From: Prauserella salsuginis
GTDB lineage: Bacteria > Actinomycetota > Actinomycetes > Mycobacteriales > Pseudonocardiaceae
Length of the DNA stretch: 64,000 bases
Assembly: GCF_024648885.1 (NCBI RefSeq)
Contig: NZ_JANBBF010000012.1
Location: 124,001 to 188,000 of the forward strand
Direction of reading: 5' to 3'
Of this stretch, positions 3,489-21,800 are shown piece by piece (the first letter of the stretch is position 1; every line of letters begins with the position of its first letter). The translations under genes and the position numbers were made by a program. The notes under the pieces were generated by a model. It was not told the DNA's origin. It worked only from the letters and a program-made list of their open reading frames with translations, and made no database searches.

Positions 3489-4394
3489 TCACTCCGGCAG
3501 CTCCCGGAACAGTGTCGCGAAACGCTCGGCCACCGGCGTCAAAACGGCGTCGGCGCGCCGGACCAGCCCGAGAGGCAGGTCCGGCCACCCGCCGACGACC
3601 GGCACGGGCATGATGCCGGGACGTGGCCCGCTCATTTCGGTGCTCAGCACCGAGACACCGGCACCGGCGGCGACGAGGCTCGCCGCGTTCTGCACCGTCG
3701 GCACGCGGACGACGTGATCGGGGCTCCCGCCAACCGAGGTGAACCGGTCGTCAAGCAGTCGCGACAGGCTGCGCGCGCCCGGCACCCTGGCGGGGAGGAT
3801 CCAGGTCAGTTCCCGCAGGTCGGCGAGCTCGACCGGCCCGCTCGACGCGAGATCCCACGAGGCCGGGGCGACCAGCGACAGCGGCAGCTCCTCGACCATC
3901 TCGACTGCAAACGCGGTGTCGTGCAGCGGAGGTAGCGGCTCTTCGGGAAGCACCGGTATCACGGCGAGATCGAGGTGCCCGTTCGCGAGGCTTTCCAGTA
4001 GATCCCGGACCGCGGTGTCCATGATCTCCAGCGTTACCTTCGGATGCTCGGCCAGATACGACGCGAGCTTGCCGCTGACGACCCGCCACATCCCCATCGG
4101 TTCGACCCCGAGCCGGAGCTCGCCCTCCAGGCCCTCCCCCATGGAGCGCAGCGTCGCCGAGATGCGCTGCTCCTCGGCGATCAGTCGCCTGCCCGCCGAT
4201 TCGAGATAACGGCCGGCCGCGGTGAGCTCGACGCCTCGTGGGAGCCGGTCGAACAGCCGCACTCCGAGCCCGGATTCGAGTTTCGCCATCGCTGTGCTCA
4301 GCGGTGGTTGGGACACGTGAAGTGCCTTGGCCGCTTCGGTGATCGACCCGGCCTCGGCGACGGCTAGGAAGTACTTCACGGTGCGGATGTCCAT
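3489..4394 (-). CDS. LysR-family transcriptional regulator
   Basis: The 301-residue protein has a classic LysR N-terminal winged helix-turn-helix at residues 1-60 (MDIRTVKYFLAVAEAGSITE, then AAKALHVSQPPLSTAMAKLE). A substrate-binding effector domain from about residue 90 contains the GHLDLAVIP strand. It is divergent from the ferredoxin-P450 series that starts at 4552, the usual arrangement for a LysR activator and its target operon. Its effector is probably the operon's substrate or an intermediate (inference). The intergenic region contains a short AT-rich dyad that could be its binding site. Confidence 0.9.
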   Translation of the reverse strand: MDIRTVKYFLAVAEAGSITEAAKALHVSQPPLSTAMAKLESGLGVRLFDRLPRGVELTAAGRYLESAGRRLIAEEQRISATLRSMGEGLEGELRLGVEPMGMWRVVSGKLASYLAEHPKVTLEIMDTAVRDLLESLANGHLDLAVIPVLPEEPLPPLHDTAFAVEMVEELPLSLVAPASWDLASSGPVELADLRELTWILPARVPGARSLSRLLDDRFTSVGGSPDHVVRVPTVQNAASLVAAGAGVSVLSTEMSGPRPGIMPVPVVGGWPDLPLGLVRRADAVLTPVAERFATLFRELPE

Positions 4395-4551: not shown

Positions 4552-4743
4552 ATGATAGAGATCAAAGTCGATTTCGAGAGGTGCGACGCGAACGGCACCT
4601 GCGCCGCGCTGATGCCGGACGTGTTCCGGATCGGCGAGGACGGGCGGCTCCGGCAGCTCGTGTCCGAAGTGGATGACGGCCGCGAAAACGAGCTCGACGA
4701 AGCCATCTTGTGCTGCCCGGTGGGGGCGATCTCCCGGTCATGA
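4552..4743 (+). CDS. [3Fe-4S] ferredoxin, P450 redox partner
   Basis: This 63-residue ferredoxin starts MIEIKVDFERCDANGTC. The cluster ligands are Cys11 and Cys17 (Cys-x5-Cys, with the central cysteine of a 4Fe motif missing) and Cys55 in the terminal CCPVGA. That is the single-cluster [3Fe-4S] form typical of actinobacterial P450 ferredoxins. I chose the ATG at 4552 because GGAG lies just upstream; an upstream in-frame GTG would add an atypical proline-rich leader. Its stop overlaps the P450 start by 4 bp, so the two are translationally coupled and it almost certainly feeds electrons to that P450. Confidence 0.9.
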   Translation: MIEIKVDFERCDANGTCAALMPDVFRIGEDGRLRQLVSEVDDGRENELDEAILCCPVGAISRS

Positions 4744-5912
4744 CGACGACTGCTGATTTCGATCCGTTCGCACCCGATGCCGGTCATGAGGGTGGGGCCG
4801 TTGATGGCCGAGCGCTCGTGTCGGGTCCCTACGGCTTCGCGGCTCTGGGCCACGAGCTCGCCTCGACGGTCCTGCGCGACCCCCGGTTCCAGAACTCGGC
4901 GCTGCGTCTGATGGAGGAGTTCGGCATCACCGAGGGGCCGGTCCACGACTTTCGCGCACGCAGCATCATCATGATCGAGGGCGACCCGCACATGCGGCTG
5001 CGCACGCCGCTCGCGCGCTTCATGAGCCCGGTGACCGTCGAGAGGATCCGTGGCGTTCTGCGCGCGATCGTCGAGACGATCACGGACGACCTCGACGACT
5101 CGAAGCCATTCGACTTCTATCGCCAGGTCGCCTACCGGATCCCGTCGATGGTCTACTGCCACCTCGCCGGTGCACCGTTCAGCGACGCGCCGAAGGTGCA
5201 GAGCCTGTCGGAGCGGACCCTCGCGCTGCTGCACCGCGACCGGAGTCTCGCGCCGTCGATTCGGGCCGCCTATGACGAGCTGTTCGACTATCTCGACGAC
5301 CTCATCCGCCGCAAGCGGGAGCAGGGGTTCGGTGAGGACATGCTGTCGTACCTGCTCAAACAGGGCGACGACGGCAAGCTCACCGAGCAGGAGGTGCTCA
5401 CCGAGGCGACCTCGATGCTGGAGGCGAGCTCGGTCAACACGGCGCACCAGGCGGGCCTAGTCGTCTGGACACTGCTGCGCGACCGGGACGTGTGGCGGCG
5501 GCTCGTCGCGGACCCAGAGCTGATACCGGCGGCGGTCGTCGAGGCGCTGCGGCTCTATCCGCGCACCGGACTGGTCAGCAAGATCGCGACGGAGGACGTC
5601 GAGCTTGGCGACGTCGTGATCCCACGCGGCTCGGACGTGCACGTGGCCGTCTGGTCGGCCAACCGCGACCCGGAGCGTTTCGAGAACCCGGGCGCCTTCA
5701 GCCTCGACCGCGAGTGCAACCAGCCGCTGACGTTCAGCACCGGCCCGCACAACTGCCTCGGGCAGGGGCTCGCGAAGGCCGAGATCGAGGAGGTCGTGCG
5801 CCACCTGGCCGAGCACTACCCGGACGCGGTCGTCGACGAGGACGCGACCCGCATCGGGCAGGCCGGTGGCCGGTGGCTCGTCGAGTCTCTGACCGTGGAC
5901 CTACGGCCGTGA
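4740..5912 (+). CDS. Cytochrome P450 monooxygenase
   Basis: The 390-residue bacterial class I P450 has the haem-binding loop FSTGPHNCLGQGLAKAE with axial Cys339 and a K-helix ExxR in EALRLYPR near residue 272. The I-helix segment, normally (A/G)Gx(D/E)T, reads EASSVNT, so the acidic residue before the Thr is Asn. This is a departure worth noting for oxygen activation or substrate anchoring. It starts within the ferredoxin stop codon and overlaps the PrpD-family gene by 4 bp. A ferredoxin reductase lies three genes downstream, completing an electron-transfer chain. It probably performs the first oxidation in this cluster; the substrate is unknown. Confidence 0.93.
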   Translation: MTTTADFDPFAPDAGHEGGAVDGRALVSGPYGFAALGHELASTVLRDPRFQNSALRLMEEFGITEGPVHDFRARSIIMIEGDPHMRLRTPLARFMSPVTVERIRGVLRAIVETITDDLDDSKPFDFYRQVAYRIPSMVYCHLAGAPFSDAPKVQSLSERTLALLHRDRSLAPSIRAAYDELFDYLDDLIRRKREQGFGEDMLSYLLKQGDDGKLTEQEVLTEATSMLEASSVNTAHQAGLVVWTLLRDRDVWRRLVADPELIPAAVVEALRLYPRTGLVSKIATEDVELGDVVIPRGSDVHVAVWSANRDPERFENPGAFSLDRECNQPLTFSTGPHNCLGQGLAKAEIEEVVRHLAEHYPDAVVDEDATRIGQAGGRWLVESLTVDLRP

Positions 5913-7297
5913 CGAGGGGACATGGGGAGATCCGCTCCCTGACCGAAAGCCTCGCCGATCACTGGTCCCACGTTGGATACGACGACATCCCTGGCGACGT
6001 CGTCGCCGACGTCAAGGACCACATCCTCGACACCCTCGCGGTCGCGCTGCGCGGTGCCACCACGGCCGAGGCAACGAGCGTCATCGACGCGCTTGCCGGT
6101 GTGCAGAGCACGTCCGTCGGCAGCACCGTCTGGGGCACCGGCCTGCGGCTTTCGCCCGCACAGGCGGCGCTGGCGAACGGAACCTCCGCGCACGCCAGGG
6201 ACTTCGACGACGGCGGCGGCCCCGGCCACGCCGGATCGACGGTGCTGCCCGCCGCGATGGCTGTCGCCGAGGCGACCGGCGCGAACGGCAAGGCGCTCAT
6301 CACCGCGACGATCGCCGGCTACGACATCGGGCACCGCGCGCTCGCCGCCCTCGGCGGATTCGGCACGCACACCGACCGAGGCTGGCATTCTAGCGGCACG
6401 ATGGGCAGCCTCGCGGCGGCGGGCGGGGCGGCGAAGTGCCTCGGCCTCGACGCGGAGCGGTACACCGACGCGCTCGGGATCGCGGGCTCGTTCACCGGCG
6501 GAGTGTGGGCGTTCAAGGACGATGGTGCCCAGACGAAGCGGTTGCATCCCGGGAAGGCGGGGGAGACCGGCGTTGACGCTGCGATCTTCGCCCGCGCCGG
6601 AATCACCGGCCCCCACCGGCTTTTCGAATCGCAGTGGGGCGGGTTGTTCGCGACGTACAACGGCGGCGTCGGACACCCGGATGTCGCGCTGAAAGACCTC
6701 GGTTCCGACTTCAACGTCGCGAGCGCGTATCTCAAGCCGTACGCGTGCTGCCGGGGCTGCCACTCGGCCGTCGACGTCGTGCTGGATCTGCTGCGTACAC
6801 GGTGCATTCGGGCCGAGGATGTCCGCTCGGTCCGCGTCACCGCCGGTGCGACGGCGTTGAGCATGCTTTCGGCCGATCCGATCGAGACGGTCTTCGACGC
6901 GCAGTTCAGCCTGCCGTACGCGGTGAGCCTGGCACTGTGCGGCGATCGCCTCGGCCTCGACGAGTACGAGCCTCCGCGCGTCGACGAGCCCCGCATCAAG
7001 GAGACCCTCGCCAAGATCTCCATGCACCTCGACGAGAGCATCGACCTGCTCGACGGTCCGCGCCTCGATGTCGAACTCACCGATGGCGAACGGCTCACTC
7101 TCGAATCCGGCGATCCTACTTTCGCCAAGGGATCGGCACCGAACCCGATGCGGCACGACGAGGTCGTCGCCAAGGCGACCGAACTCGTCGCACCGCTGGG
7201 CGGTGATGTTGCCCGCGGCCTCGTGAACGCCGTCGACCACCTCGACCACGCCCCCGACGTCACCGAGCTCCTGCACGTACTCGGCGACCGGTCATGA
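5909..7297 (+). CDS. MmgE/PrpD-family protein (2-methylcitrate dehydratase / cis-aconitate decarboxylase fold)
   Basis: The 462-residue protein is full length for the MmgE/PrpD family. Typical segments are AHARDFDD followed by GHAGSTVLPA near residue 100, GWHSSGTMGSLAAAG, KRLHPGKAGETG and KPYACCRGCHSAVD. These carry the conserved His, Lys and Tyr residues that line the active site of PrpD and of cis-aconitate decarboxylase. I use the GTG at 5909, inside the P450 stop, because the family N-terminus starts there. Known members dehydrate 2-methylcitrate or decarboxylate cis-aconitate. Next to a hydratase, CoA transferase and C-C lyase it probably handles a branched di- or tricarboxylic acid, but the reaction is not fixed by sequence. 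Confidence 0.88.
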   Translation: MTRGHGEIRSLTESLADHWSHVGYDDIPGDVVADVKDHILDTLAVALRGATTAEATSVIDALAGVQSTSVGSTVWGTGLRLSPAQAALANGTSAHARDFDDGGGPGHAGSTVLPAAMAVAEATGANGKALITATIAGYDIGHRALAALGGFGTHTDRGWHSSGTMGSLAAAGGAAKCLGLDAERYTDALGIAGSFTGGVWAFKDDGAQTKRLHPGKAGETGVDAAIFARAGITGPHRLFESQWGGLFATYNGGVGHPDVALKDLGSDFNVASAYLKPYACCRGCHSAVDVVLDLLRTRCIRAEDVRSVRVTAGATALSMLSADPIETVFDAQFSLPYAVSLALCGDRLGLDEYEPPRVDEPRIKETLAKISMHLDESIDLLDGPRLDVELTDGERLTLESGDPTFAKGSAPNPMRHDEVVAKATELVAPLGGDVARGLVNAVDHLDHAPDVTELLHVLGDRS

Positions 7298-8124
7298 ACG
7301 GAACGGAAACCATGTCGACCCCGGAGAAGCTCAAGCGCACCGAGATCATCGCCGCCGAACCGGCCGAGTCGATGGCTGGCCTGCTCGACATCGAGATGGG
7401 CCATGCCCTCGGCGACACCCTCGCGCCGCTGTGGCACTGGTGCTACCTGCTCGAACGCAGTCCTGAACGGGCGCTCGGCGAGGACGGCCACCCCGTCGAG
7501 GGCATCCCGGCGCCGCCCGGGCCCGATCGCCGCCGCATGTTCGCCGGTGGCCGCGTCACCACGCTCGGCGGGCTGAAGATCGGCAAGCCGGCCACGAAGG
7601 TCACCTCGATCGCGAAGTCGGTCGACAAGGAAGGCCGCACCGGGCGGCTGACCTTCACGACCGTGCTGCAGGAGATCTTCCAGGACGACCGGCTCGTCAT
7701 CCGCGAGGAGCAGGACATCGTCTACCGCGCGCCGGGATCGAACGCGCTGCCGACACCGCCACCGCCGCCGGAGCCCGCGGCCGGGCCGACCCTGGAACTC
7801 ACCGCAGACGAGCGGCTGCTGTTCCGCTTCTCCGCGCTGACCTACAACGCCCACCGGATACACTACGACCTCGACTGGTGCCGCAAGGAGGGCTACGACG
7901 GACTCGTCATCCACGGCCCGCTGCTGGCGTTCATGATGGGCGAGCACCTGCGCCGCGAAGGCATCGACCTGGTCGGGAAGACCTTCGGATACCGGCTCGT
8001 ATGCCCGATGACCCAGCCGCAGACGTTCACCATCGTCCCCGGCCCGGGCGGGCTCGACCACGGCGCCGAGGCCCGCAGCGCGACCGGAGCCGTCTGCGCC
8101 GTCGGCACCTTGATGGAGGGCTGA
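7294..8124 (+). CDS. MaoC/FAS1-like enoyl-CoA hydratase (mesaconyl- or itaconyl-CoA hydratase type)
   Basis: The 276-residue protein has two hot-dog halves. The C-terminal one has the MaoC signature TYNAHRIHYDLDWCRKEGYD and then LVIHGPLLAFMM, with the catalytic hydratase His. The length and the N-terminal LAPLWHWCYLLE segment match the HTD2/FAS1-like hydratases that include mesaconyl-C4-CoA hydratase and itaconyl-CoA hydratase. Such enzymes add water to give citramalyl-CoA, and a citramalyl-CoA-lyase-like gene lies at 11984 with a CoA transferase before it. The ATG at 7294 overlaps the PrpD stop; a second in-frame ATG at 7312 is possible. The exact acyl group is inferred from context. Confidence 0.8.
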   Translation: MNGTETMSTPEKLKRTEIIAAEPAESMAGLLDIEMGHALGDTLAPLWHWCYLLERSPERALGEDGHPVEGIPAPPGPDRRRMFAGGRVTTLGGLKIGKPATKVTSIAKSVDKEGRTGRLTFTTVLQEIFQDDRLVIREEQDIVYRAPGSNALPTPPPPPEPAAGPTLELTADERLLFRFSALTYNAHRIHYDLDWCRKEGYDGLVIHGPLLAFMMGEHLRREGIDLVGKTFGYRLVCPMTQPQTFTIVPGPGGLDHGAEARSATGAVCAVGTLMEG

Positions 8125-8127
8125 GCC

Positions 8128-9333
8128 GTGTCGACCTGTTCGTCAGACGTCCTGGTCGTCGGCGGCTCCGTGGCCGCCACCCGCGCCGCCGAGATCGTCG
8201 TCCGCAAGGCTCCCCAGCTGAGCGTTGTCGTCGTCAGCGACGAGTCCCACGCGCCGTACGAGCGCCCGCCGCTGTCCAAGACGGATCTCGACGATGCGAT
8301 GGATCTGGACGCGCTGACCTATCCGACGGTGGCCACGCTCCGCGATGCCGGGGTGGAGTTCGAACTCGCTACCCGTGCAGAGAGGCTCGACGTCGGTACG
8401 CGCACGGTCACGACCACCACCGGCTCGGTCGAATACGGCGCACTGGTGATCGCGACCGGATGCGAGCCGGTGATCCCGTCACTGCTCCGCGGACTCGATG
8501 ACGTCTACGCGCTGCGCTGTTACGAGGACGCGGTCGCGCTGCGCGCGGCCGTCGCGGGCTCGGACACCGCGGTGGCGATCGTCGGCGCCGGCTTCATCGG
8601 CGGAGAGTTCGCCGCGACCCTCGCGAAACAGGAGCGGGACGTGGCGCTCATCGACCTCGCGCCGAAACCGTTGGGGCGCTTCGGCGACGCTGTCGCGGCG
8701 TCCTACAAGCAGCTGCATCGCGACGCGGGCGTGACGCTGCACCTCGGCACGGCGGCCGTAGATGTGACCCACGACGGCGGACGGCGCGAACTCGTGCTCG
8801 ACGACGACACCCGAGTTCGGGCCGATGTCATTCTGCTCGGGGTCGGCGTCAGGCCCGCCGTCGACTGGCTCGCCGACTCTGGACTGACATTGGACAACGG
8901 AATCGTCTGCGACACGACCCTCCGGGCGGCCGACCGGGTGTACGCCGCGGGAGACGCCATCCGGTGGACGAACGCGCGTTTCGGATCGACGATGCGGATC
9001 GAGCACTGGACCAACGCGGCCCAACAGGGGCGCGTGGCGGGCATGAACGCCGCGAACGCTGTGCTCGGCGAGTCGCCCGTCGAATGCGCCAACGTCCCAT
9101 ACTTCTGGTCCGACCAGCACGGCGTCCGCATCCAGTTCGCCGGACACCGCACCGGCGACGAGGAGATCGTGGAGAGCCACGACGACAGCGGCTCACTCTA
9201 CCTGTACCGGCGGGGCGACGAGGTGACCGGAGCACTCGCCTTCGAGCGGCGCACGCAATTCGTCAAACTCCGCGCTGCCCTGAAGACGCCGCTGCCGTGG
9301 GAGACCGCGCGGGAGCTGGCGGAACTCGCGTAG
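8128..9333 (+). CDS. FAD-dependent ferredoxin reductase
   Basis: The 401-residue NAD(P)H-dependent reductase has an N-terminal FAD Rossmann segment (VLVVGGSVAATRAAE), the ERPPLSK motif near residue 50, a second nucleotide-binding GxGxxG (AIVGAGFIGGEFAATLAKQ) near residue 150, and VYAAGDA near residue 270. This is the ferredoxin/rubredoxin reductase family that serves class I P450s and Rieske oxygenases. It starts at GTG 8128, four bases after the hydratase stop. With the [3Fe-4S] ferredoxin and the P450 of the same series it forms a complete redox chain. A hairpin follows the gene. Confidence 0.92.
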   Translation: MSTCSSDVLVVGGSVAATRAAEIVVRKAPQLSVVVVSDESHAPYERPPLSKTDLDDAMDLDALTYPTVATLRDAGVEFELATRAERLDVGTRTVTTTTGSVEYGALVIATGCEPVIPSLLRGLDDVYALRCYEDAVALRAAVAGSDTAVAIVGAGFIGGEFAATLAKQERDVALIDLAPKPLGRFGDAVAASYKQLHRDAGVTLHLGTAAVDVTHDGGRRELVLDDDTRVRADVILLGVGVRPAVDWLADSGLTLDNGIVCDTTLRAADRVYAAGDAIRWTNARFGSTMRIEHWTNAAQQGRVAGMNAANAVLGESPVECANVPYFWSDQHGVRIQFAGHRTGDEEIVESHDDSGSLYLYRRGDEVTGALAFERRTQFVKLRAALKTPLPWETARELAELA

Positions 9334-9342
9334 CGACCACGA

Positions 9343-9365
9343 CACCCGGCACCACGGTCCGGGTG
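9343..9365 (+). terminator. Hairpin after the ferredoxin reductase
   Basis: Arms CACCCGG and CCGGGTG are separated by 9 nt and lie 10 bp past the reductase stop, in the 209-bp gap before the next gene. There is no T tract. It may attenuate transcription between the P450 set and the flavin monooxygenase group. Confidence 0.4.
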
Positions 9366-9542
9366 GGCCCGAACGAGTTTAGGAAGGAGTAGCCAGCGTC
9401 GGTGAGCCGTCGTGGCCGGAAGTTGATTTGTGACACGTATGGGAGGTCGAAACGATGGGTATTGGTGGCTTGACGCGATTTCCTCCACGCTGGAAGAAAG
9501 GCTTCAAAGCGAAGGCCGGTGCGAGGGGACGGGGAGGAAGCC

Positions 9543-10748
9543 GTGCGTGAAGATCACCAGGTCGTTGTCGTCGGGGCGGGACCGACTGGGCTGTTGACCG
9601 CACTCGGTCTTGCGCAGCAAGATATCGACGTCACCGTGGTCGAGCGAGCGCCCGGTCTGCAGGACGCGCCGCGCGCGATCGTCTACCATTGGTCCACGCT
9701 TGGCGGGATCGAGCGCCTGGGCCTCTTCGACGCCGCCGTGCGGGAAGGTTTCCTCAAACAGGACTACGCCTACCGCGTGCACAAGACCGGCGAGATCATC
9801 GAATACGGCCTCAAACCACTGGAAGGTAAGGTCAAGCACCCCTACAACCTCCACATGGGACAGGGTGTGCTCGCCCAGGTAATCCTCCGTGAGGCCGAGA
9901 CGCACGACAACATCCGGATCCTGTGGGGCCACGAGGTTGTCGACGTCGCGCCCGACAATGCCGGAGTCGATGTCCGGGTCCAGGTCGTCGACGACGAGAC
10001 GACCGTGCGCGGCGCATGGCTCGTCGGTGCGGACGGAGCTAACTCGCGGGTGCGTAGCGCCCTCGATCTCGGGTTCGACGGCATGACCTGGCCCGAGCGG
10101 TTCGTGGCCACTAACATCCGCTTCCCTGACGACCGCGAGGGCTGGGCCCAGTCGACTTTCTACGTTGACGACGAGTACGGTGCCATCATCGCCAAGATCG
10201 ACGAATCCGGCGAGCACGGGCTATGGCGCTACACGTTCATGGAGGACGACGCGCTGCCCGCCGAGACTGTGGCTGACCGGCTGCCCCGGTTCTTGTCTGC
10301 GGTCTTCGGTGACGACGTCGCGGATCGGATCGAAGTCGACGCGATCTCGCCGTATCGGATGCATCAGCGCAGCGCCTCGACGTTCCGCGCGGGCCGGGTC
10401 TTGCTGGCGGGCGACGCCGCCCATGTGACGAACCCGTGCGGCGGTCTCGGGCTCACGATGGGGCTCTTTGACGCCTACGCGCTGATCGAGGCGCTCGGTG
10501 GCGTGATCCGCGACGGCGTGCAAGACGGTGTCCTCGACGCCTACGCCGAGCAGCGGCGTACCGCGTTCGAGGAGAAGGCCAGTCCCCGCGCATCGGCGAA
10601 CAAGCAGTTGATCTTCCACTCCAGTGATCTCGCGAAGCTCGACAAGGACTTGGAACTCTTCCGGCGCATGTCGAAAGATTCCGAACTGGCAGCCGATGTC
10701 CTCTACTTCACCAAAACGCTGGAGTGTCCGTCGCTGCTCGCAGGCTGA
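9543..10748 (+). CDS. FAD-dependent aromatic hydroxylase (PHBH/MhpA fold, short form)
   Basis: The 401-residue class A flavin monooxygenase has the N-terminal GxGxxG (VVVVGAGPTGLLTALGLAQQ), the DG motif in LVGADGANSRVR near residue 165, and the GD motif VLLAGDAAHVTNPCGGLGLT near residue 290. It lacks the C-terminal thioredoxin-like domain of MhpA-type enzymes (500-600 residues). A GGAGGAAG ribosome site at 9532 sets the GTG start at 9543. It probably hydroxylates a phenolic ring using NAD(P)H. Because the hydroxyquinol-pathway genes downstream are preceded only by a decayed hydroxylase, this enzyme could supply the ring hydroxylation (inference). Confidence 0.9.
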   Translation: MREDHQVVVVGAGPTGLLTALGLAQQDIDVTVVERAPGLQDAPRAIVYHWSTLGGIERLGLFDAAVREGFLKQDYAYRVHKTGEIIEYGLKPLEGKVKHPYNLHMGQGVLAQVILREAETHDNIRILWGHEVVDVAPDNAGVDVRVQVVDDETTVRGAWLVGADGANSRVRSALDLGFDGMTWPERFVATNIRFPDDREGWAQSTFYVDDEYGAIIAKIDESGEHGLWRYTFMEDDALPAETVADRLPRFLSAVFGDDVADRIEVDAISPYRMHQRSASTFRAGRVLLAGDAAHVTNPCGGLGLTMGLFDAYALIEALGGVIRDGVQDGVLDAYAEQRRTAFEEKASPRASANKQLIFHSSDLAKLDKDLELFRRMSKDSELAADVLYFTKTLECPSLLAG

Positions 10749-10829
10749 CCCATGAGGCCGTGCCCCTATCCAGCCCGCCGCGTCAGCGGCGCTTCTGTCC
10801 GCTGAACCCGATCTCATGTAAGGATCCGC

Positions 10830-11987
10830 ATGACTCCGCTCTCCGGGCTCGTCGTCGTCGCTCTCGAGCAGGCGGTCGCCGCTCCCTTCGCCACCCGCCA
10901 GCTCGCCGATCTGGGCGCCCGCGTCATCAAGATCGAGCGCCCCGGGGTGGGGGACTTCGCCCGGCGCTACGACGAGACGGTCCACGGACAGGCCAGCCAC
11001 TTCGTCTGGCTCAACCGGGGCAAGGAATCGGTGAGCCTGGACCTGAAGAGCGACGACGGTCGAGCGACGATCCAAACGCTGGTGAGCCGGGCCGACGTGT
11101 TCATCCAGAACCTCGCTCCCGGCGCGGCCGAGCGGCTCGGACTCAGTGCCGACGCGCTGCGCGAGGAAAACCCGGGACTCGTCCACGTGTCGATCTCCGG
11201 CTATGGCGACGGCGGCCCGTACTCGACGAAGAAGGCCTACGACCTGCTGGTCCAGTGCGAGGCCGGGCTCGTGTCGATCACCGGCACGCCGGATGAGCCC
11301 TCCAAGGTCGGCATCTCCATCGCCGACATCGCCTCGGGCATGTACGCCTACACCGGCATCCTGACCGCGATCATCCAGCGTCAGCAGACCGGAACCGGAG
11401 TCACGATCGAGGTCTCGATGCTGGAGGCGCTCTCGGAGTGGATGGGCTACCCGCTCAACTACGCGATGTACGGGGGAGAGGCCCCGCCGCGCACCGGCGC
11501 ACGCCATGCGTCGATCTATCCGTACGGTCCGTTCACCTGCGGTGATGGGAACCTCGTGTTCCTCGGTCTGCAGAACGAGCGCGAATGGGCCGTGTTCTGC
11601 GAGCGGATCCTGGAGAAGGTCGAGCTGACCCAGGACCAGCGCTTCAGCCGCAACTCGCTGCGCGTCGAGCACAGCGACGCGCTCCGCAGCGAGATCGAAC
11701 GCGCTTTCGTCGGCAGTGCGGCCGAGGAGATCGCCGCGAAACTGGAAAGTGCGGGCATCGCCAACGCCGTGCTCCGGGACATGCACGGGCTCGCCGACCA
11801 CCCGCATCTGGAGGCGCGCGATCGCTGGCGGACCTACGATTCACCTCGCGGGCAGCTGCGTGGCCTCATCCCGCCCGTCACGTTCGCGGGCTCCGAGCCG
11901 CTGATGGGCGCGATTCCCGACATCGGCGAGCACACCGACACGGTGCTCGCCGAATTCGGTATGCCGCGATCCTCGGGCGCGTCGTGA
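10830..11987 (+). CDS. CaiB/BaiF-family CoA transferase (dicarboxylate type)
   Basis: The 385-residue protein shows the family III CoA-transferase layout. It begins MTPLSGLVVVALEQAVAAPF, then LGARVIKIERPGVGDFAR, LNRGKESVSLDLK, a catalytic-Asp region in KKAYDLLVQCEAGL near residue 140, and the C-terminal HPHLEARDRW. Members move CoA between carboxylic acids without a covalent acetate intermediate, and some act on itaconate, mesaconate or citramalate. It overlaps the citramalyl-CoA-lyase-like gene by 4 bp (GTGA), so the two are co-translated. The context favours activation of a branched C5 dicarboxylic acid or a larger analogue as its CoA ester. Confidence 0.88.
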   Translation: MTPLSGLVVVALEQAVAAPFATRQLADLGARVIKIERPGVGDFARRYDETVHGQASHFVWLNRGKESVSLDLKSDDGRATIQTLVSRADVFIQNLAPGAAERLGLSADALREENPGLVHVSISGYGDGGPYSTKKAYDLLVQCEAGLVSITGTPDEPSKVGISIADIASGMYAYTGILTAIIQRQQTGTGVTIEVSMLEALSEWMGYPLNYAMYGGEAPPRTGARHASIYPYGPFTCGDGNLVFLGLQNEREWAVFCERILEKVELTQDQRFSRNSLRVEHSDALRSEIERAFVGSAAEEIAAKLESAGIANAVLRDMHGLADHPHLEARDRWRTYDSPRGQLRGLIPPVTFAGSEPLMGAIPDIGEHTDTVLAEFGMPRSSGAS

Positions 11988-12811
11988 ACACGAATCAGTT
12001 CTCCTGCGCGGTGCTCGTCCGTACCGCTCGGTCGCTGCTGTTCGTGCCCGGCGACCGCCCGGGGCGTTTCGACCAGGCCGCGGCCGCGGGCGCCGACGCG
12101 GTCATCCTCGATCTGGAGGACGCCGTCTCCTCGGAGCGCAAGGAAATCGCTCGCACCGAGGTCGCCAGCTGGCTCGACCGCGGCGACTACGCGTGCGTGC
12201 GCGTCAATGCGGTCGGCGGTCCCGAGCACCAGCGTGATCTCGACGCACTCCGGGCGCTGCCGGGACTGCTCGCGGTGATGGTCCCCAAACCGGACGATCC
12301 CGCTCGGCTCGCTGCCATCGCTGAACACGTGCGCATGCCGATGATCGCACTCGTCGAGACGGCCACCAGCCTCCTGCGGGCGACCGAGCTCGCGGCGGTT
12401 CCGGGTGTTGAGCGGCTGGCGTTCGGCCACCTCGACTACGCCGCCGACATCGGTGCGACTCCGACGCAGACGGCGATGCGGCACGCGCGCTCGACGCTTG
12501 TGGCCGTGTCCAGGGCAGCGGGCGTCGCAGGGCCGATCGACGGCGTGACAACAGCGATCGACGACCTCGGCGGCCTCTCGAAAGACGTCGCGTGTGCGAG
12601 GGAACTCGGCATGACCGGCAAGCTACTCGTGCATCCACGCCAGGTCGTGGGCACACACAACGGCTTTCGCCCTACCGACGACGAGATCCGTTGGGCGCGC
12701 AGCGTCACCGACGCCACGACGACCGGCGACGAGGCCTTGAGCGTTGACGGCCAGATGGTCGACGCGCCGGTGCTGGCGCGCGCCGCGGCGCTCCTGCACC
12801 AGGCGGAATGA
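11984..12811 (+). CDS. HpcH/HpaI-family acyl-CoA lyase (citramalyl-CoA / citryl-CoA lyase-like)
   Basis: The 275-residue lyase belongs to the CitE/Mcl family: RSLLFVPGDRPGRFDQAA near residue 14, AVILDLEDAVSSERK near residue 35 with the metal-ligand acidic residues, VRVNAVG, and LVETATSLL near residue 125. Its length matches stand-alone CitE-like citramalyl-CoA lyases, which cleave to acetyl-CoA and pyruvate, more than the trimeric citrate-lyase subunit. The GTG at 11984 overlaps the CoA-transferase stop. Together with the transferase and the MaoC hydratase it makes a complete activate-hydrate-cleave module. The side chain of the substrate is unknown. Confidence 0.85.
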   Translation: MNTNQFSCAVLVRTARSLLFVPGDRPGRFDQAAAAGADAVILDLEDAVSSERKEIARTEVASWLDRGDYACVRVNAVGGPEHQRDLDALRALPGLLAVMVPKPDDPARLAAIAEHVRMPMIALVETATSLLRATELAAVPGVERLAFGHLDYAADIGATPTQTAMRHARSTLVAVSRAAGVAGPIDGVTTAIDDLGGLSKDVACARELGMTGKLLVHPRQVVGTHNGFRPTDDEIRWARSVTDATTTGDEALSVDGQMVDAPVLARAAALLHQAE

Positions 12812-12859
12812 GCATGGATCACGCTGACCCCAGAGCGGACGAAACGGAAGTGAGCAGAA

Positions 12860-13654
12860 GTGGCTGAGCAGAACACGAGGGGCGCTGCAGCGATCACCGG
12901 CGGCGCGGGCGGCCTCGGGGCTGAGATCGCCACCCGGCTGGCGCGGCAGGGCTTCTCGCTCACGCTCCTCGATCTGCACGACGAGGGGCTGCGGCGAGTC
13001 GAGGAACAACTCGGAGCGGCCGTGTCCGAAACCGCCGTCCTGAGCATCGCCCTCGACCTTACGGATGAGGACGGGGTAGCCGCGGCATTCGACCGGATCG
13101 ACGAGCGATTCGGGCGGCTCGACGCTCTGGTCAACACCGCGGGCGGCAGCGGCACCGACCAGATTCGCAGCCTCGACGAACTCTCGGCCGACGTCTGGCG
13201 CCACGTCGTCGACGACAACCTGACCAGCGCCTTCCTGTGCTGTAAGCACGCCGTCCCGATCATGAAACGGGCCGGCTACGGCCGCATCGTCAACTTCTCC
13301 TCGGCGGTGGCTAACGGCAAGACCGAACCGTCCGGAGCTGTCGGCACCCGGCTCCCCTACGCGGCCTCGAAGGCCGCCATCAACGGCCTCACCAAGCAAC
13401 TCGCCAAGGACCTCGGAGGCACCGGCATCACCGTCAACTCGCTCTCACCAGGGCTGGTGTTGCCGAAGGAACGGCGAGTGCGAGACAGCTTCGAGGCACT
13501 CCCTGCCGAGGCCCAGGCCGCGGCGCGGGCGGCGATCCCGGCCGGACGCACCGGCACCGGCGCCGAGGTCGCCGCCGCCGTGGCCTACCTGGTCTCTGAG
13601 GAAGCCGGGTTCACCACCGGCAGCGTCATGAGCGTCGACGGCGCCGAAGTCTGA
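12860..13654 (+). CDS. Short-chain dehydrogenase/reductase
   Basis: The 264-residue classical SDR has the cofactor motif TGGAGGLG near residue 13, NTAGG near residue 95, catalytic Ser in NFSSAV and YAASK as the YxxxK motif near residue 173. It probably oxidises or reduces a hydroxyl or keto group with NAD(P). The start is GTG at 12860, with GGAAG upstream. It follows the lyase by 48 bp on the same strand and is followed by a hydrolase, so it belongs to the catabolic series, but nothing fixes its substrate. Confidence 0.87.
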   Translation: MAEQNTRGAAAITGGAGGLGAEIATRLARQGFSLTLLDLHDEGLRRVEEQLGAAVSETAVLSIALDLTDEDGVAAAFDRIDERFGRLDALVNTAGGSGTDQIRSLDELSADVWRHVVDDNLTSAFLCCKHAVPIMKRAGYGRIVNFSSAVANGKTEPSGAVGTRLPYAASKAAINGLTKQLAKDLGGTGITVNSLSPGLVLPKERRVRDSFEALPAEAQAAARAAIPAGRTGTGAEVAAAVAYLVSEEAGFTTGSVMSVDGAEV

Positions 13655-13698
13655 CCACCCCGATGTCCCATCAAACCCACCGACCACGAAGGACGAAC

Positions 13699-14391
13699 AT
13701 GCTGCCCCACCCCTTGGTGCTCGTGCCCGCTCTCGGCTCGGACGAACGACTCTGGCAACCCCTGATCGAACGGCTCGGTGACACCGTCGATACCGTCGTG
13801 ATTCGAGGAGAAGGTGACGCGATCTCGGCGATGGCCGACAGCGTGGTCGCCCAGACCCCGGAAAGGTTCTACCTGGCAGGCAACTCGATGGGCGGCTACG
13901 TGGCGCTCGACATCGTGCTCCGCTACCCGGAGCGTGTGACCGGACTAGTGCTGCTGAACACGTCGGCCATCGCGGCGGCACCGGAGCGCAGAGACGCCTC
14001 GCTCAAGCTGATCGAGCAAGTCGAGAACGGCGGATTCGCGGAAGCGGTCGCGACCATCTCGGCTCCGGTCGCACCCGGTCGTCCGGATGTCAGCGCGATC
14101 GCGGCGGCAATGGCCCTGGATCTCGGCCCGGCCGTGTTCAACGACCACCAGACGGCGGTGAGCAACCGCGGGGACCGCAGAGCCGAACTCGGTGACCTGA
14201 CCGTACCAACGCTGGTCATCACCGGGGACAAAGACAGGGTCGTGCCTGCCGAACTCGGCGAGGAACTCGCGAAGCTGATTCCCGGTGCGGAGCTGGCCGT
14301 GCTGGAAGGCGTCGGGCACCTTTCGCCTCTCGAAGCCCCCGGCGATGTCGCCACACACCTGATCACGTGGCTGGAGCGGAGTTCGCAGTAA
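13699..14391 (+). CDS. Alpha/beta hydrolase
   Basis: The 230-residue protein has an alpha/beta hydrolase fold with nucleophile elbow GNSMGG, catalytic Asp in ITGDKDRVVP and catalytic His in GVGHLSPLE near the C-terminus. I start it at ATG 13699 with GAAGGA upstream; an in-frame ATG at 13663 would add a basic, non-family leader. The fold covers enol-lactone hydrolases and ring-cleavage product hydrolases. The position between the CoA module and the hydroxyquinol genes suggests an ester or lactone substrate. Confidence 0.82.
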   Translation: MLPHPLVLVPALGSDERLWQPLIERLGDTVDTVVIRGEGDAISAMADSVVAQTPERFYLAGNSMGGYVALDIVLRYPERVTGLVLLNTSAIAAAPERRDASLKLIEQVENGGFAEAVATISAPVAPGRPDVSAIAAAMALDLGPAVFNDHQTAVSNRGDRRAELGDLTVPTLVITGDKDRVVPAELGEELAKLIPGAELAVLEGVGHLSPLEAPGDVATHLITWLERSSQ

Positions 14392-14689: not shown

Positions 14690-15026
14690 GGCAAGGGGCA
14701 CGTCACTTATGGCGGCGCCACCGGGCAATCCGACGAGACCGTCGGGCGGGGCTGGGCGCTTATCTCCGCCGCCGGGACACGGTGGCGTGCTCGCCCCGAT
14801 CCGGTAGCGGCTGCTCGATCGGCTCGGCGGGCTCGCTGTCACCATCGGGCCGGTCGGCAGTGGCGCCGAGATGATCGACGCCGTCGGCCTCTACGAGGCC
14901 TGGCTCGCCAAGCACGATCGGAAAAATCTATTCATACGGCCTGATTTCACCGTCGCCGCTACCGCGGCCGACGATGAAAGCCTGCAGGTCGCGTTTCATA
15001 GCGTCACCGGGGCACTCGCGCGCTGA
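14690..15026 (+). pseudogene. Decayed C-terminus of an MhpA-like FAD aromatic hydroxylase
   Basis: A plus-strand frame at about 14808-15026 reads LLDRLGGLAVTIGPVG, then YEAWLAKHDRKNLFIRPDFT and a final VAATAADDESLQ, ending at TGA 15024-15026. This is the thioredoxin-like tail of MhpA/resorcinol-hydroxylase type monooxygenases, where VRPDxYVxxxA near the end is conserved. A second frame just upstream (around 14700-14780) reads DETVGRGWALISAAG, which matches the DDVxGxGFxLL segment of the same domain, so at least one frameshift separates them. No FAD-binding domain is left, and 14392-14690 holds nothing I recognise. The fragment sits immediately before maleylacetate reductase, where the hydroxylase of a resorcinol operon would be. 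Confidence 0.7.
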
Positions 15027-15042
15027 CGGAGGAGACGAGTTT

Positions 15043-16107
15043 ATGAGGTTCACGCATGAGACGCTGCCGCAACGGGTCGTTTTCGCTCCCGGCGACGCGC
15101 CGTATGCGGTGGCCAACGAGGTCGCGGCGCTGAACGGGTCTAAGGTCATGCTCCTCGCGTCGGAACGCGAGGTAGCCCTGGCCGACCCGATCGCCGATCG
15201 GATCCCAGTGGTCCTGCTGCACGACGAGGTAGTCATGCACGTGCCGGCCGACGTCGCGGCGCGTGCCCGCGACACGGCGATGGCCACCGGAGCGGATGTC
15301 CTGGTCTGCGTCGGCGGCGGGTCGACCACGGGGCTGGCGAAGGCGGTCGCGCTGGCCAGCGGCCTGCCGATCGTCGCCGTGCCCACCACCTACGCGGGGT
15401 CGGAGGCCACGAATGTCTGGGGCCTGACCGAGGGCGGGACCAAGACGACCGGTGTCGACGCCGCGGTGCTTCCGCGCTCGATCGTCTACGACGCGCACCT
15501 GCTGAGCACGCTACCCGGGGAGTCGGCTGTCGCGTCGGGACTGAACGCGATGGCGCACTGCGTGGACTCGATGTGGGGTCCGCGAGCCGACCCGATCGAC
15601 CGCGCCTTCGCCGGCGAGGGCATCCGGGGGCTGGCGACCGGGCTCCGGCGCGTTGCGGCCGACCCGGCCGACGTCGGCGGCATCGAGCAGATGCTCTACG
15701 GCGCCTACCTCGCCGCGGTCGCGTTCGCCTCCGCCGGATCCGGTATGCACCACAAGATCTGCCACGTGCTCGGCGGTATGTTCGACCTCCCGCACGCCGA
15801 GACCCACTCCGTCGTTCTGCCGCACGTGCTGGCTTTCAACGCGCCGAACGCCCCGGAGGGGGAACGCCGGATCGCGGCCGCGTTCGACGCCGACACCGCC
15901 GTCGAGGGACTTGCCGCACTGCGCGACGAGCTCAACGCTCCCGGCGCGCTTCGGGACCACGGGATGCCCGAGGCCGGGATCGCTGACGCGCTAGCCCCGA
16001 TCAAGAAGGCGATCCCGGCCGACAATCCCACACCCGTCACGGACGAGAACCTGACCACGCTGCTGGAAGCGGCCTGGTCCGGTCTCGACGACCGAAGGAG
16101 CCGATGA
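15043..16107 (+). CDS. Maleylacetate reductase
   Basis: The 354-residue iron-type alcohol-dehydrogenase-fold enzyme reduces maleylacetate to 3-oxoadipate with NAD(P)H. Visible motifs are [17 protein letters not shown] near residue 92 (cofactor), [15 protein letters not shown] near residue 117, [17 protein letters not shown] near residue 170, and [21 protein letters not shown] near residue 240 with the metal-region histidines. This MHHKxCHxLGGxxxLPHA segment is characteristic of maleylacetate reductases. GGAGGAG at 15028 sets the ATG at 15043. It overlaps the hydroxyquinol dioxygenase gene, and the two catalyse consecutive steps. Confidence 0.95.
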
Positions 16108-17015
16108 TGCACCCCCACGCCGACCATGTCCCCCGCGAGGTCACGTCCGAGCAGCAGGCTGTCGAACAGCGCCTGGTCGAGCGTGTCGTCGCCTCGTTCG
16201 ACGCCTGCGGTGACCCGCGGCTCAAGGAGGTGATGACCTCCCTGGTCCGGCACCTGCACTCCTTCATCCGTGAGGTTCAACTGACCGAGCCGGAATGGGA
16301 CGCGGCCATCGAATTTCTCACCAGGGCCGGGCACATTACCGACGACGTCCGTCAGGAGTTCATCCTGCTGTCGGACACCCTCGGTGCCTCGATGCAGACC
16401 ATCAACGTCAACAACCAGGCCTACGGCGACGCCACCGACGCCACCGTGTTCGGCCCGTTCTTCGTCGAGGACTCACCGGCGATCGAGAACGGCGACGACC
16501 TGGCCTTCGGCGCGTCCGGCGAGCCATGCTGGGTCGAGGGCACCGTCACCGACACCGAAGGAAACCCGTTGGCCGGTGCGCGGATCGAGGTCTGGGAAGC
16601 GGACGAGGATGGCCGCTACGACGTGCAGTACGACGCAGGAAAGAGGGCGGCCCGCGCACACCTGTTCACCGACGTGAACGGTGCCTACCGATTCTGGGGG
16701 CTGACGCCCACACCGTATCCGATCCCAGACGACGGCCCGGTTGGCGAGATGCTCGCCGTGGTCGGCCGCTCGCCGCTGCGGGCCGCGCACCTGCACTTCA
16801 TGGTCTCCGCCGACCACCACCGCAAGCTTGTGACCCACATTTTCCCCGAGGGCGACTCGATCCTGTGGGATGACACCGTCTTCGGTGTGAAGGAGTCACT
16901 GATCAAGCGGTTCGAGTCGCAGCCCGCAGGCACGCCGACGCCGGACGGTCGCGAGATCGAGGGCACCTGGTCCCGGGTGCGATTCGACATCGTGCTGGCG
17001 TCGGCCGCGGCGTGA
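16104..17015 (+). CDS. Hydroxyquinol 1,2-dioxygenase (intradiol)
   Basis: The 303-residue intradiol ring-cleavage enzyme converts hydroxyquinol to maleylacetate via 3-hydroxy-cis,cis-muconate. The non-haem Fe(III) ligands can be placed as Tyr172 (DGRYDVQY), Tyr205 ([12 protein letters not shown]), His229 and His231 (RAAHLHFMV). Their spacing of 33, 24 and 2 equals that of the characterised Nocardioides enzyme. The N-terminal helical dimerisation domain is present (residues 1-105). AAGGAG at 16095 serves ATG 16104 or ATG 16107. Coupled to maleylacetate reductase, it feeds 3-oxoadipate to the beta-ketoadipate pathway. A hairpin follows. Confidence 0.95.
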
Positions 17016-17479: not shown

Positions 17480-18421
17480 TCACGACACGGCGGCGTCGAT
17501 CTTGTCGTAGCGCATCGACTTCGCACGCTCCATCACGGTACGCAGTGGCTCGGGTTCGTGCCCGGTGATCTGTTCGACGTGTCGGGACTGGATTGCCTGG
17601 TAGCCCTTGGCGATCGCGATTTCGGCGGTTACCAGCTCGTCGCTGGCCCACATGTGTCCGTCGGGGCTGGGCGGCATGTCCGGGTCGTAGGTCCGGGGGA
17701 TACCGATCGAGTCGTAGAACGCGAGGCGTTCCTCGGCGGTGATCGGCACGTACTCGATCGGCCTCCCGTACACCTCGGTGCCGATCGCGGCGATCCGCTC
17801 GAAATTCAGTAGCTCGGGACCGGTGATCTCGTAGACCGCACCCGCGTGTGCCTCCGGGTCGAGTAGGCACGCGGCCGCGCTGCGTGCGACATTGGCCTTC
17901 GACACCGGGGCGAGGTAGCCGTCGCCGGTGGCCTGTTCCATCCGCCCGGTGTCGGCGCCCGGTGCTACGAGGATGTTGCTGACGATCTCGGCATAGAGCG
18001 CGTTTCGCAGAAATGTGTATTCCAGTCCGGACACCCGTAGATCCAGTTCACTCTGGTAGTGGTCGATCGCGGACAACGCCGGATTGCGCCGCTGCACCCC
18101 GCCGACGGAGGTGTAGACGATATGACGGATGCCTGCCTTCTGCGCGGCAGCGATGACGTTGCGGTGTTCCTCGACGCGGCGTCCCAGGTTAAGCCCGCTG
18201 ATCAGGAACAGGACGTCGCCGCCCTGGTAGGCGGCTTCGAGTAGCTCCAGCTTCCGATGGTCGCCCTCGCGCAGGAGGATTCCGGGCCCGGTGTGGTGGG
18301 CGAGCTTATCCGGTGTACGGGACACGAGCGTCAACTCGCGGTTTGGATCGGCCCGTAGTAGGAGATCGGTGACGCGGCGTCCCAGATCTCCCGAGGCTCC
18401 GCTGACGACGATGCGACTCAT
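17480..18421 (-). CDS. NmrA-like / QorB-type NAD(P)-binding reductase
   Basis: The 313-residue atypical short-chain reductase begins MSRIVVSGASGDLGRRVTDL, with the NmrA-type GASGxLG nucleotide motif. It continues with HRNVIAAAQKAGIRHIVYTS near residue 105 and LEYTFLRNALYAE, as in NmrA and NAD(P)H:quinone oxidoreductase 2 proteins. AAGGAG precedes the ATG at 18421. It is divergent from the ABM-ferredoxin-P450 series. The role could be quinone or enone reduction of an aromatic intermediate, or redox sensing; the sequence does not decide. Confidence 0.82.
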   Translation of the reverse strand: MSRIVVSGASGDLGRRVTDLLLRADPNRELTLVSRTPDKLAHHTGPGILLREGDHRKLELLEAAYQGGDVLFLISGLNLGRRVEEHRNVIAAAQKAGIRHIVYTSVGGVQRRNPALSAIDHYQSELDLRVSGLEYTFLRNALYAEIVSNILVAPGADTGRMEQATGDGYLAPVSKANVARSAAACLLDPEAHAGAVYEITGPELLNFERIAAIGTEVYGRPIEYVPITAEERLAFYDSIGIPRTYDPDMPPSPDGHMWASDELVTAEIAIAKGYQAIQSRHVEQITGHEPEPLRTVMERAKSMRYDKIDAAVS

Positions 18422-18665
18422 TCGAAACTCCTTGTGCTCGACGTGTGATCGACCGGGCGGCCCGCCCGTGAACTGTGTCTCGTACCTTGACGGAGTTTCC
18501 GGCGCCTGACGATGCCGGGAATATGGCGGCTGCCATACCTCCCGTGCATGGTCAGGGCAACGTTTCTGGTGTTGTCGCGCCACCGGCTTGACGTCGACAG
18601 TGACCAGGTCGCCTTACGAATGCCGAGATCGAGGTAGCCGACATGCCGTCCATCGACTTTCGGTT

Positions 18666-18971
18666 GTGATCGCCGTGATCGTCGAGCATGCCGAATTCCG
18701 TGTGCTGCCCGGGAGAGGGGCCGAGCTCGAGGCCGCTTTCGCGCGGATCAGCGATCTTCTCCTGGGAGCGCAGGGGTGCCACGGAGCAGAACTGCTGCAC
18801 AGCGTCGACCACGAGGACACCTACCTGCTCCGGGTGTGGTGGGAGAACCTCGAAGACCACACCGAAGTCTTTGCTCGCACCGAAGCGGGAATGTCGCTGG
18901 CCGCCGTACTGGGGCCGTACTGCGATGGCCCGCCCCACGTTGTCCACTACGGAGGCAGTGCACATGCCTGA
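18666..18971 (+). CDS. Antibiotic-biosynthesis-monooxygenase (ABM) domain protein
   Basis: This protein of about 101 residues is a single ABM ferredoxin-like beta-alpha-beta domain. Typical parts are the first strand AEFRVLPGRGAELEAAFARI, GCHGAELLHSVDHEDTYLLR, WENLEDHTEVF with the conserved W/E and H, and a final VVHYGG. Members include cofactor-free quinone-forming monooxygenases and small accessory proteins. There are in-frame GTG starts at 18666 and 18675 and no clear ribosome site, so the start is uncertain. It overlaps the ferredoxin gene by 8 bp and must be co-expressed with the P450 set. Confidence 0.78.
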   Translation: MIAVIVEHAEFRVLPGRGAELEAAFARISDLLLGAQGCHGAELLHSVDHEDTYLLRVWWENLEDHTEVFARTEAGMSLAAVLGPYCDGPPHVVHYGGSAHA

Positions 18972-19290
18972 GATCGTGTTCCACCAGCCTGGCGGCCGTG
19001 TCGCCACCGTCGAGACCGAAGCGGGCGTGAGCGTGATGCGCGCGGCCGTCCAGAACGCTGTGGAGGGCATCGTCGGCGAGTGCGGCGGTCAGGCAATGTG
19101 TGCGACTTGCCATGTTCTCGTCCACGAGTCCGTTCTGGACGGTCTGCCGCCGATCGGCGACGACGAGGAAGAGATGCTCGACTGTACGGCGGCGCCGCGC
19201 GATCCACGACGGAGCAGGCTGGGCTGCCAGCTGATCATGGGTACCGATCTTCCGAAGGTTGCGGTCGATGTCCCCGAAACCCAGCTCTGA
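18964..19290 (+). CDS. [2Fe-2S] ferredoxin, adrenodoxin/putidaredoxin type
   Basis: The 108-residue ferredoxin has cluster ligands Cys40, Cys46, Cys49 and Cys88 in the adrenodoxin-type C-x5-C-x2-C-x(n)-C arrangement, and an acidic GDDEEEMLD stretch at 65-73 typical of reductase/P450 docking. It overlaps the ABM gene by 8 bp and the reductase gene start by 23 bp. It is the electron carrier between the FAD reductase at 19268 and the P450 at 20566. Confidence 0.93.
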   Translation: MPEIVFHQPGGRVATVETEAGVSVMRAAVQNAVEGIVGECGGQAMCATCHVLVHESVLDGLPPIGDDEEEMLDCTAAPRDPRRSRLGCQLIMGTDLPKVAVDVPETQL

Positions 19291-21756: not shown

Positions 21757-21800
21757 GCCTACGGACTGCCCTTTAGCATCAACAACAAACAGGAGAAGAA

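Follow-up and report, generated by a model that had tools for sequence, protein, structure and literature searches.

What is degraded by the genes at positions 4552 to 12811 of the window, a 64-kb stretch (67% GC) of the 5.64-Mb genome (G000) of Prauserella salsuginis? A preliminary description had placed eight genes of one strand there, encoding a [3Fe-4S] ferredoxin, a cytochrome P450, a PrpD-family enzyme, a MaoC-type hydratase, a ferredoxin reductase, a flavin hydroxylase, a CaiB-type CoA-transferase and a CitE-like lyase, and had proposed that a P450 system is joined to an itaconate- or mesaconate-like CoA module. We found that these genes are half of a larger unit, an island of 20 genes. 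It is an even call in our judgement whether this island is a catabolic route for a plant phenolic, probably with two rings, in which the ring would be released as hydroxyquinol and the side chain as an itaconate-type C5 acid. The direct support comes from the gene families, from conserved synteny and from homology to an itaconate-type operon.

Each of the eight families was confirmed by sequence search against Pfam, NCBIfam or the PDB. The several 4-bp overlaps described before were borne out at four of the seven junctions (ferredoxin/P450, P450/PrpD, PrpD/MaoC and CaiB/CitE), and the remaining three measure +3, +209 and +81 bp. The spacing C-x2-N-x2-C...CP in the small ferredoxin is compatible with a [3Fe-4S] cluster. 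The series does not end at 12811, as had been stated, but runs on to 17015 on the same strand with an SDR oxidoreductase, an alpha/beta hydrolase, a maleylacetate reductase (MAR), preceded by a 582-bp gap, and a hydroxyquinol 1,2-dioxygenase (HQDO), whose gene overlaps that of MAR by 4 bp. A second, ring-cleavage block at 17480–29991 adds seven further conserved genes, for a phenol hydroxylase and its reductase, a VOC dioxygenase, a FAH-family protein, an aldehyde dehydrogenase, an NmrA-type and an ABM-domain protein. We refer to 4552–17015 as the lower and to 17480–29991 as the upper block. The genes of the lower block may share a single transcript. Inside the 582-bp gap lies a 156-aa reading frame (14404–14871) with no Pfam match at E ≤ 1e-5. 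The features are listed below; fractions give the orthologous loci, out of the 16 introduced after the list, that hold the gene within their flanks. The second P450 and the second ferredoxin reductase are excluded from the tally of 20.

3489..4394, minus strand: LysR regulator, divergent from the putative operon (Pfam LysR_substrate, HTH_1; orthologue of 56–65% in 6/16)
4552..4743, plus strand: small ferredoxin, presumed P450 partner (Fer4_15/Fer4_13; 67–78% in 12/16)
4740..5912, plus strand: cytochrome P450 (PF00067; 13/16)
5909..7297, plus strand: MmgE/PrpD-family enzyme (PF03972/PF19305)
7294..8124, plus strand: MaoC-like protein, itaconyl-CoA-hydratase type (profile A2: PDB 8huc, E 2.9e-53, and 8khg, E 6.6e-53; 16/16)
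8128..9333, plus strand: ferredoxin reductase (Pyr_redox_2, Reductase_C; 11/16)
9543..10748, alternative start 9519, plus strand: flavin (FAD) hydroxylase, HspB/PnpA type (PDB 7da9, 6ain; 12/16)
10830..11987, plus strand: CaiB class III CoA-transferase, itaconate type (PF02515, E 3.5e-108; 13/16)
11984..12811, plus strand: CitE-like acyl-CoA lyase, citramalyl-CoA lyase type (NCBIfam RipC, below cut-off; PDB 9nzb/8khl; 9/16)
12860..13654, plus strand: SDR oxidoreductase (adh_short_C2; 6/16)
13663..14391, plus strand: alpha/beta hydrolase, PcaD-like (11/16)
14974..16107, plus strand: maleylacetate reductase (PDB 3iv7, E 9.4e-133, deposited as alcohol dehydrogenase IV; 3w5s, E 1.5e-64; 3hl0, E 1.5e-62; 6/16)
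16104..17015, plus strand: hydroxyquinol 1,2-dioxygenase (PDB 1tmx, E 1.7e-139; 6/16)
17480..18583, minus strand: NmrA-type NAD(P)-binding protein (6/16)
18588..18971, plus strand: ABM-domain small protein (PF03992; 7/16)
19259..21756, plus strand: second ferredoxin reductase and second P450, a variable part of the island (2/16)
22114..23286, plus strand: aldehyde dehydrogenase (6/16)
25472..26689, minus strand: two-domain VOC dioxygenase, extradiol type (weak PDB matches to BphC; 5/16)
26693..27694, minus strand: FAH-family hydrolase/decarboxylase (7/16)
28143–28823 (reductase) and 28690–29991 (oxygenase), minus strand: two-component flavin monooxygenase, HsaA/HPA-hydroxylase type (8/16 each)

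Is this grouping conserved elsewhere, a check for which the preliminary description had called? A scan of genome contigs with the PrpD protein gave 72 loci, 15 at 60–76% identity and 57 at 27–36%; the plasmid of Rhodococcus koreensis R85 was added to the former, giving the 16 orthologous loci. Flanks were at most 10 kb for the 15 contig loci and 20 kb for R85, per-gene identity thresholds were chosen by hand, and the counts depend on flank length and on contig ends. None of the 57 loci with a distant PrpD, which served as controls (44 of at least 15 kb, 13 shorter), carries any of the 21 other genes, and the grouping around PrpD is not a matter of chance. With longer flanks, all 20 island genes were found in four other records: the R. 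koreensis R85 plasmid, Rhodococcoides trifolii, Arthrobacter 9V and Streptomyces LUP47B. Streptomyces NBC_01446 holds 18 of the 20 (without LysR and ABM) and Gordonia amarae 15 (without LysR, ferredoxin, ferredoxin reductase, CitE and NmrA). Another genome of the genus of NBC_01446 (G1012), met in a later search and without part in drawing up the gene list, holds 17 (without LysR, NmrA and ABM). The loci counted here are the seven that had long flanks from the start or after extension.

The island is rare in the sampled genomes, and its carriers are scattered soil and plant bacteria. At E ≤ 1e-90 a PrpD orthologue was found in 1 of 397 genomes of the order and 1 of 396 of the phylum, in both cases the P. 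salsuginis genome itself, in 4 of 295 from the genus of Streptomyces NBC_01446 (one of them new, the others met before) and in 4 of 242 from the genus of Bradyrhizobium macuxiense (none of them new); as the broad sampling first scored 4 to 6 candidates per genome, these counts are possibly lower bounds.

Do the two blocks serve one pathway? In whole-genome searches of the 15 named genomes, the flavin hydroxylase was found in 14 (E ≤ 1e-80), the VOC dioxygenase gene in 8 (71–75%, E ≤ 1e-60) and the HQDO family in 14; since most genomes hold several HQDO copies, not all of these matches belong to the island. The lower block occurs without a VOC gene at that threshold in S. brasiliensis and in the four Bradyrhizobium genomes. 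An ABC transporter ATPase and a Peripla_BP_6 protein lie near it in one Bradyrhizobium (L037) and a branched-chain-type permease in S. brasiliensis (L039), which hints that such genomes import an aryl acid. A lower block standing alone, together with an order of the two blocks that differs among genomes, would suit two distinct pathways, with an extradiol and a hydroxyquinol substrate respectively, that merely share a mobile catabolic island. We regard this as unlikely: the genes for PrpD, P450, MaoC and flavin hydroxylase are present in 8 of the 8 genomes with the VOC gene, although this test is one-sided because all genomes were picked by their PrpD.

The CoA module is where the comparison with a known system is closest. 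On a Pseudomonas aeruginosa plasmid an operon runs LysR-MaoC-ACAD-VOC-MmgE/PrpD-CaiB-CoA ester lyase-TRAP, which by gene order and product names we equate with the itaconate (ict-ich-ccl) operon of strain PAO1. According to PMC12599236, pa0878, pa0882 and pa0883 are needed for growth of PAO1 on itaconate; the main text of that paper mentions neither pa0881 nor PrpD. Like the window, this operon combines CaiB, MaoC, a CoA-ester lyase, a PrpD-family gene and LysR in one locus, a parallel that the preliminary description had overlooked, and a PrpD gene beside itaconate enzymes is thus already present in Pseudomonas. Unlike the window, it has no ferredoxin-P450 pair, no ring hydroxylase and no ring-cleavage genes except for a VOC gene of 126 aa. 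Identities to the window proteins are 57.6% for CaiB (377 aa), 41.9% for CitE, 40.3% for MaoC and 30.9% for PrpD. The MaoC profile matches the solved itaconyl-CoA hydratase 8khg strongly, its Pfam match (20.9 bits) being slightly below the cut-off of 22. CitE matches PDB structures named 'acyl-CoA lyase beta chain' (E 2e-49 and 2.9e-49) and scores 131.6 bits against NCBIfam RipC (cut-off 375), and CaiB stays under the cut-offs of all seven NCBIfam models that it matched. Taken together, the earlier assignment of transferase, hydratase and, more tentatively, lyase to an itaconate-like set is supported by these homologies. CoA transfer to bile acids or fatty acids appears disfavoured, since of the relatives compared the closest to CaiB are CoA-transferases of the itaconate type.

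Is plain itaconate the substrate of this module? The P. salsuginis genome (G000:C1) encodes further copies, namely another CaiB/CitE pair (L115) and, at a separate place, another MaoC resembling itaconyl-CoA hydratase and adjoining an acyl-CoA dehydrogenase (L110). These copies are nearer to the Pseudomonas enzymes (CaiB 60%, CitE 48%, MaoC 46%) than those of the island, which may therefore be specialised. Together with the presence of HQDO and MAR in the same series, this would fit a module that takes an aryl- or alkyl-substituted itaconate or mesaconate, derived from a substituted hydroxyquinol by way of a substituted maleylacetate and its reduction. We think this improbable. A thiolase was not matched in the window, though others in the genome could serve, and plain itaconate is favoured by the CaiB and MaoC of Bradyrhizobium, which resemble the Pseudomonas enzymes more closely.

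The Bradyrhizobium loci are informative in a further respect. In all four, PrpD is 60–62% identical to the window protein, and the three loci that have them within the flank encode a ferredoxin (71–73%), a P450 (63%) and a ferredoxin reductase (60–61%) of the same kind. Their CaiB, in contrast, is 67–69% identical to that of P. aeruginosa versus 57% to that of the window, and their MaoC 46–51% versus 38–41%. In trees, two Bradyrhizobium CaiB rows cluster with P. aeruginosa (support 84/82), as do four MaoC rows (support 95/90), with long branches in the trees. Apparently, either itaconate enzymes were recruited to the front end on two occasions, or the original ones gave way to other genes of their kind; on either view, itaconate or a very close compound is suggested to be made.

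Which enzyme would release it? The flavin hydroxylase has two PDB matches at E ≤ 1e-30, HspB (7da9, E 5.4e-97), its closest solved relative, and PnpA (6ain, E 6.3e-75). HspB, the 6-hydroxy-3-succinoylpyridine 3-monooxygenase, reportedly swaps the succinoyl side chain of a hydroxypyridine for a hydroxyl group; it differs from the enzyme proposed here in its pyridine substrate and linear C4 side chain. The window protein is thus nearest to ipso-hydroxylases that remove a side group, and may be able to remove an acyl or nitro group. HspB-like chemistry on a 2,4- or 3,4-dihydroxyaryl ketone would give hydroxyquinol, on which the HQDO acts whose gene lies six genes further downstream. HQDO and MAR are clear homologues of hydroxyquinol-pathway enzymes (1tmx; 3w5s/3hl0), here encoded as an overlapping pair; the window differs from the usual pathway in coupling these two genes with a P450-PrpD pair and a CoA module of itaconate type. 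With HQDO and MAR in the series and a flavin hydroxylase nearest to HspB and PnpA, one half of the substrate class suggested before, an aromatic carrying a branched chain, has gained support. For the other half, an alkylated or terpenoid-like dicarboxylic acid, none of the identified genes speaks.

In the upper block, the oxygenase is of HsaA/HPA-hydroxylase type and its reductase of HsaB type, all scores being under curated cut-offs. The VOC dioxygenase matches BphC weakly in the PDB (best E 6e-7), and its predicted structure (pLDDT 55) is too poor for use. Three observations concern ring enzymes of other genomes. Near the island of R. trifolii lies an extradiol gene of LigB type that belongs to the DOPA-dioxygenase family (L031:5427-6290). 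Pimelobacter simplex 3E encodes a 50% relative of the flavin hydroxylase about 11 kb from PrpD, just beyond the fetched locus (L034 contig, G799:C37). The Rhodococcus plasmids pLP337 and pGD02.2.2 (L137, L138) encode a 53–54% relative together with two P450s, a maleylacetate reductase, a lactonase and VOC proteins, and are a sister aromatic cluster.

The PrpD-family enzyme has IDS-epimerase and then cis-aconitate decarboxylase (CAD/IRG1) as its nearest solved relatives. We take the active-site set of CAD to be D93, T97, H103, H159, K207, H277 and Y318, a numbering that agrees with the aligned 462-residue chain (u1030) when shifted by one. The window protein keeps D98, H107, H160 and K210 at conserved CAD positions. 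Its predicted structure is confident (pLDDT 88), and a KP..CCR motif is invariant in 19 of 19 aligned rows. A role as 2-methylcitrate dehydratase was rejected, the best NCBIfam equivalog score being 44.6 bits against a cut-off of 950. Distant homologues occur in other contexts on plasmids of Diaphorobacter, Burkholderia (a record unannotated there) and Paracoccus. In all 10 loci outside Bradyrhizobium that have the P450, PrpD lies directly downstream of it (20–50 bp between aligned ends).

In this P450 the I-helix reads ASSVNT in 12 of 12 aligned rows and lacks the acid-threonine pair that is the usual P450 motif at this place. Assignment as a known aryl O-demethylase was not favoured, since no molecule name reads demethylase among the 60 listed of 65 PDB matches (E ≤ 1e-30); many of these names read simply 'Cytochrome P450', which leaves room for such a role. 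The second ferredoxin reductase/P450 pair (19259–21756) is common to just two Streptomyces loci (P450 71 and 70%) and may widen the substrate range.

How would these enzymes act together? Here we infer every reaction, the order of the reactions, the role of PrpD and the substrate. The two-component phenol hydroxylase, extradiol-type dioxygenase, aldehyde dehydrogenase and FAH protein of the upper block would degrade one ring, and the P450 and its partners would ready the remaining aryl acid. The HspB-like flavin hydroxylase would then hydroxylate the ring carbon to which the side chain is attached and so free the chain. The ring would exit as hydroxyquinol, to be converted by HQDO and MAR to 3-oxoadipate, and the side chain as a branched C5 acid. 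This acid would be either itaconate or 2-(hydroxymethyl)succinate, the hydrate of itaconate and a possible substrate for dehydration by PrpD. Activation by CaiB, hydration to citramalyl-CoA by MaoC and cleavage by CitE would yield pyruvate and acetyl-CoA.

On paper, itaconate and hydroxyquinol add up to a C11 aryl acid. Such a frame could arise from an isoflavanone with its B ring reduced to CH2COOH, or from a lignan cut between C7' and C8'; the itaconate carbons would then be C4-C3(C2)-C1'-C2' of the isoflavonoid or C7-C8(C9)-C8'-C9' of the lignan. Lignans or isoflavonoids would thus suit the carbon skeleton, an unproven fit. The 2-aryl flavonoids of the naringenin type would by the same reasoning give a linear C5 chain, a poorer fit to a lyase for branched acids. 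Isolation sources, in part taken from strain names and the R85 record (Trifolium, lupin, apple rhizosphere, legume nodules), give a weak hint. A stricter version makes itaconate an obligate intermediate, the upper block stripping one ring from a lignan or isoflavonoid and the Ict-Ich-Ccl set finishing the remainder. The flavin hydroxylase would then act on Ar-CO-CH(CH2OH)-CH2-COOH (2,4- or 3,4-dihydroxyaryl) or on its lactone or chromanone, and give hydroxyquinol and 2-(hydroxymethyl)succinate, which PrpD would dehydrate to itaconate. We put this version forward tentatively and hold it rather doubtful. A parallel for the release of an aryl group exists in the lignan degraders SG-MS1 and SG-MS2, whose aromatic moieties are reportedly funnelled to protocatechuate and methoxyhydroquinone (PMC12607616).

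Several observations weigh against the proposed route. In PrpD the position of CAD T97 is Gly102, and as aligned there is no His at H277 and no Tyr at Y318, the alignment being loose there; because these residues are not kept, a role as cis-aconitate decarboxylase is unlikely. Dehydration of 2-(hydroxymethyl)succinate suits the chemistry of the family, but is a guess. The window differs from the P. aeruginosa operon in that three P. aeruginosa TRAP (tripartite ATP-independent periplasmic) transporter proteins find no homologue in it at E ≤ 1e-3, while the CoA-transferase of the same operon does match. A thiolase match, as needed for the 3-oxoadipate end of the route, is likewise absent from the window at E ≤ 1e-3, with 20 matches elsewhere in the genome. 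Support in the CaiB tree is moderate, with the P. salsuginis paralogue L115 inside the same group and several long branches. Eight genomes were searched for the lyase, namely six with none in the flanks, Pimelobacter as positive control and Streptomyces LUP47B, in which it had already been found; a citramalyl-CoA lyase (E ≤ 1e-35 to the P. aeruginosa enzyme) was absent in four of the eight, Gordonia and three Bradyrhizobium, and the fourth Bradyrhizobium has its match on a different contig from PrpD. Finally, Salinibacterium (L036) has PrpD-MaoC-CaiB-CitE with no island ring genes in the flanks and no HQDO, flavin hydroxylase or VOC gene genome-wide, so that the CoA module alone is no proof of an aromatic origin.

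The Salinibacterium locus also bears on the possibility that itaconate itself, or a related C5 acid, is the substrate of the P450 and PrpD, the ring genes being mere neighbours that serve another compound. A P450 of Ustilago is said to oxidise itaconate to hydroxyparaconate, and the 4-bp overlap of the P450 and PrpD genes would agree with a shared substrate of this kind. The Salinibacterium module, however, is also without such a P450 alongside, and P450, PrpD, flavin hydroxylase and CaiB occur together in Rhodococcus/Rhodococcoides, Arthrobacter, Streptomyces, Gordonia and Bradyrhizobium; we consider this explanation quite improbable.

For the combination of a P450, an aromatic hydroxylase and an itaconate-type module no described pathway was found in the open-licence literature, in agreement with the preliminary description. 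Two other systems resemble parts of the route from a plant phenolic. The later enzymes of the Variovorax isoflavone cluster ifc and the naringenin cluster fde, which were compared with the window by description only, include extradiol and FAH types. Like the proposed route, these clusters hydroxylate a phenol ring of a two-ring flavonoid, cleave it and carry out later steps (PMC11069340). The main text of that paper does not mention CoA, transferase, hydratase, PrpD, hydroxyquinol or itaconate, and speaks of P450 for the plant enzyme only. The second system is the carbofuran-phenol cfd cluster of sphingomonads, described in PMC8292978. We take it to be the corresponding stretch of the Sphingobium CFD-1 plasmid, where a VOC dioxygenase gene is 46% identical to that of the window. 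FAH, acyl-CoA-dehydrogenase-family and CoA-transferase genes are present there as well, other related genes being 25–31% alike. Unlike the window, the annotated stretches of this plasmid contain no P450, PrpD, HQDO or MAR.

Two other gene groups lie in the window. Positions 33870–41356 encode two MR_MLE enolases, an aldehyde dehydrogenase, a FAH hydrolase, an RraA-like aldolase and an MFS transporter and resemble sugar-acid catabolism. On the minus strand, 963–2572 holds an RraA-like aldolase adjoining a PIG-L deacetylase.

By homology, the island appears to combine known catabolic parts in a new arrangement, and the itaconate route, although unproven, is testable. Being compact, rare and complete in named strains, the island can be put to the test directly. 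If the route is true, a plant phenolic would be degraded via itaconate, joining two fields that were not found together in the open-licence literature, and itaconate-degrading genes would be under environmental selection beyond that by fungi or macrophages. A group of the PrpD family would gain a function, and PrpD a new reaction, and a P450 would be added that accompanies this PrpD in two phyla.

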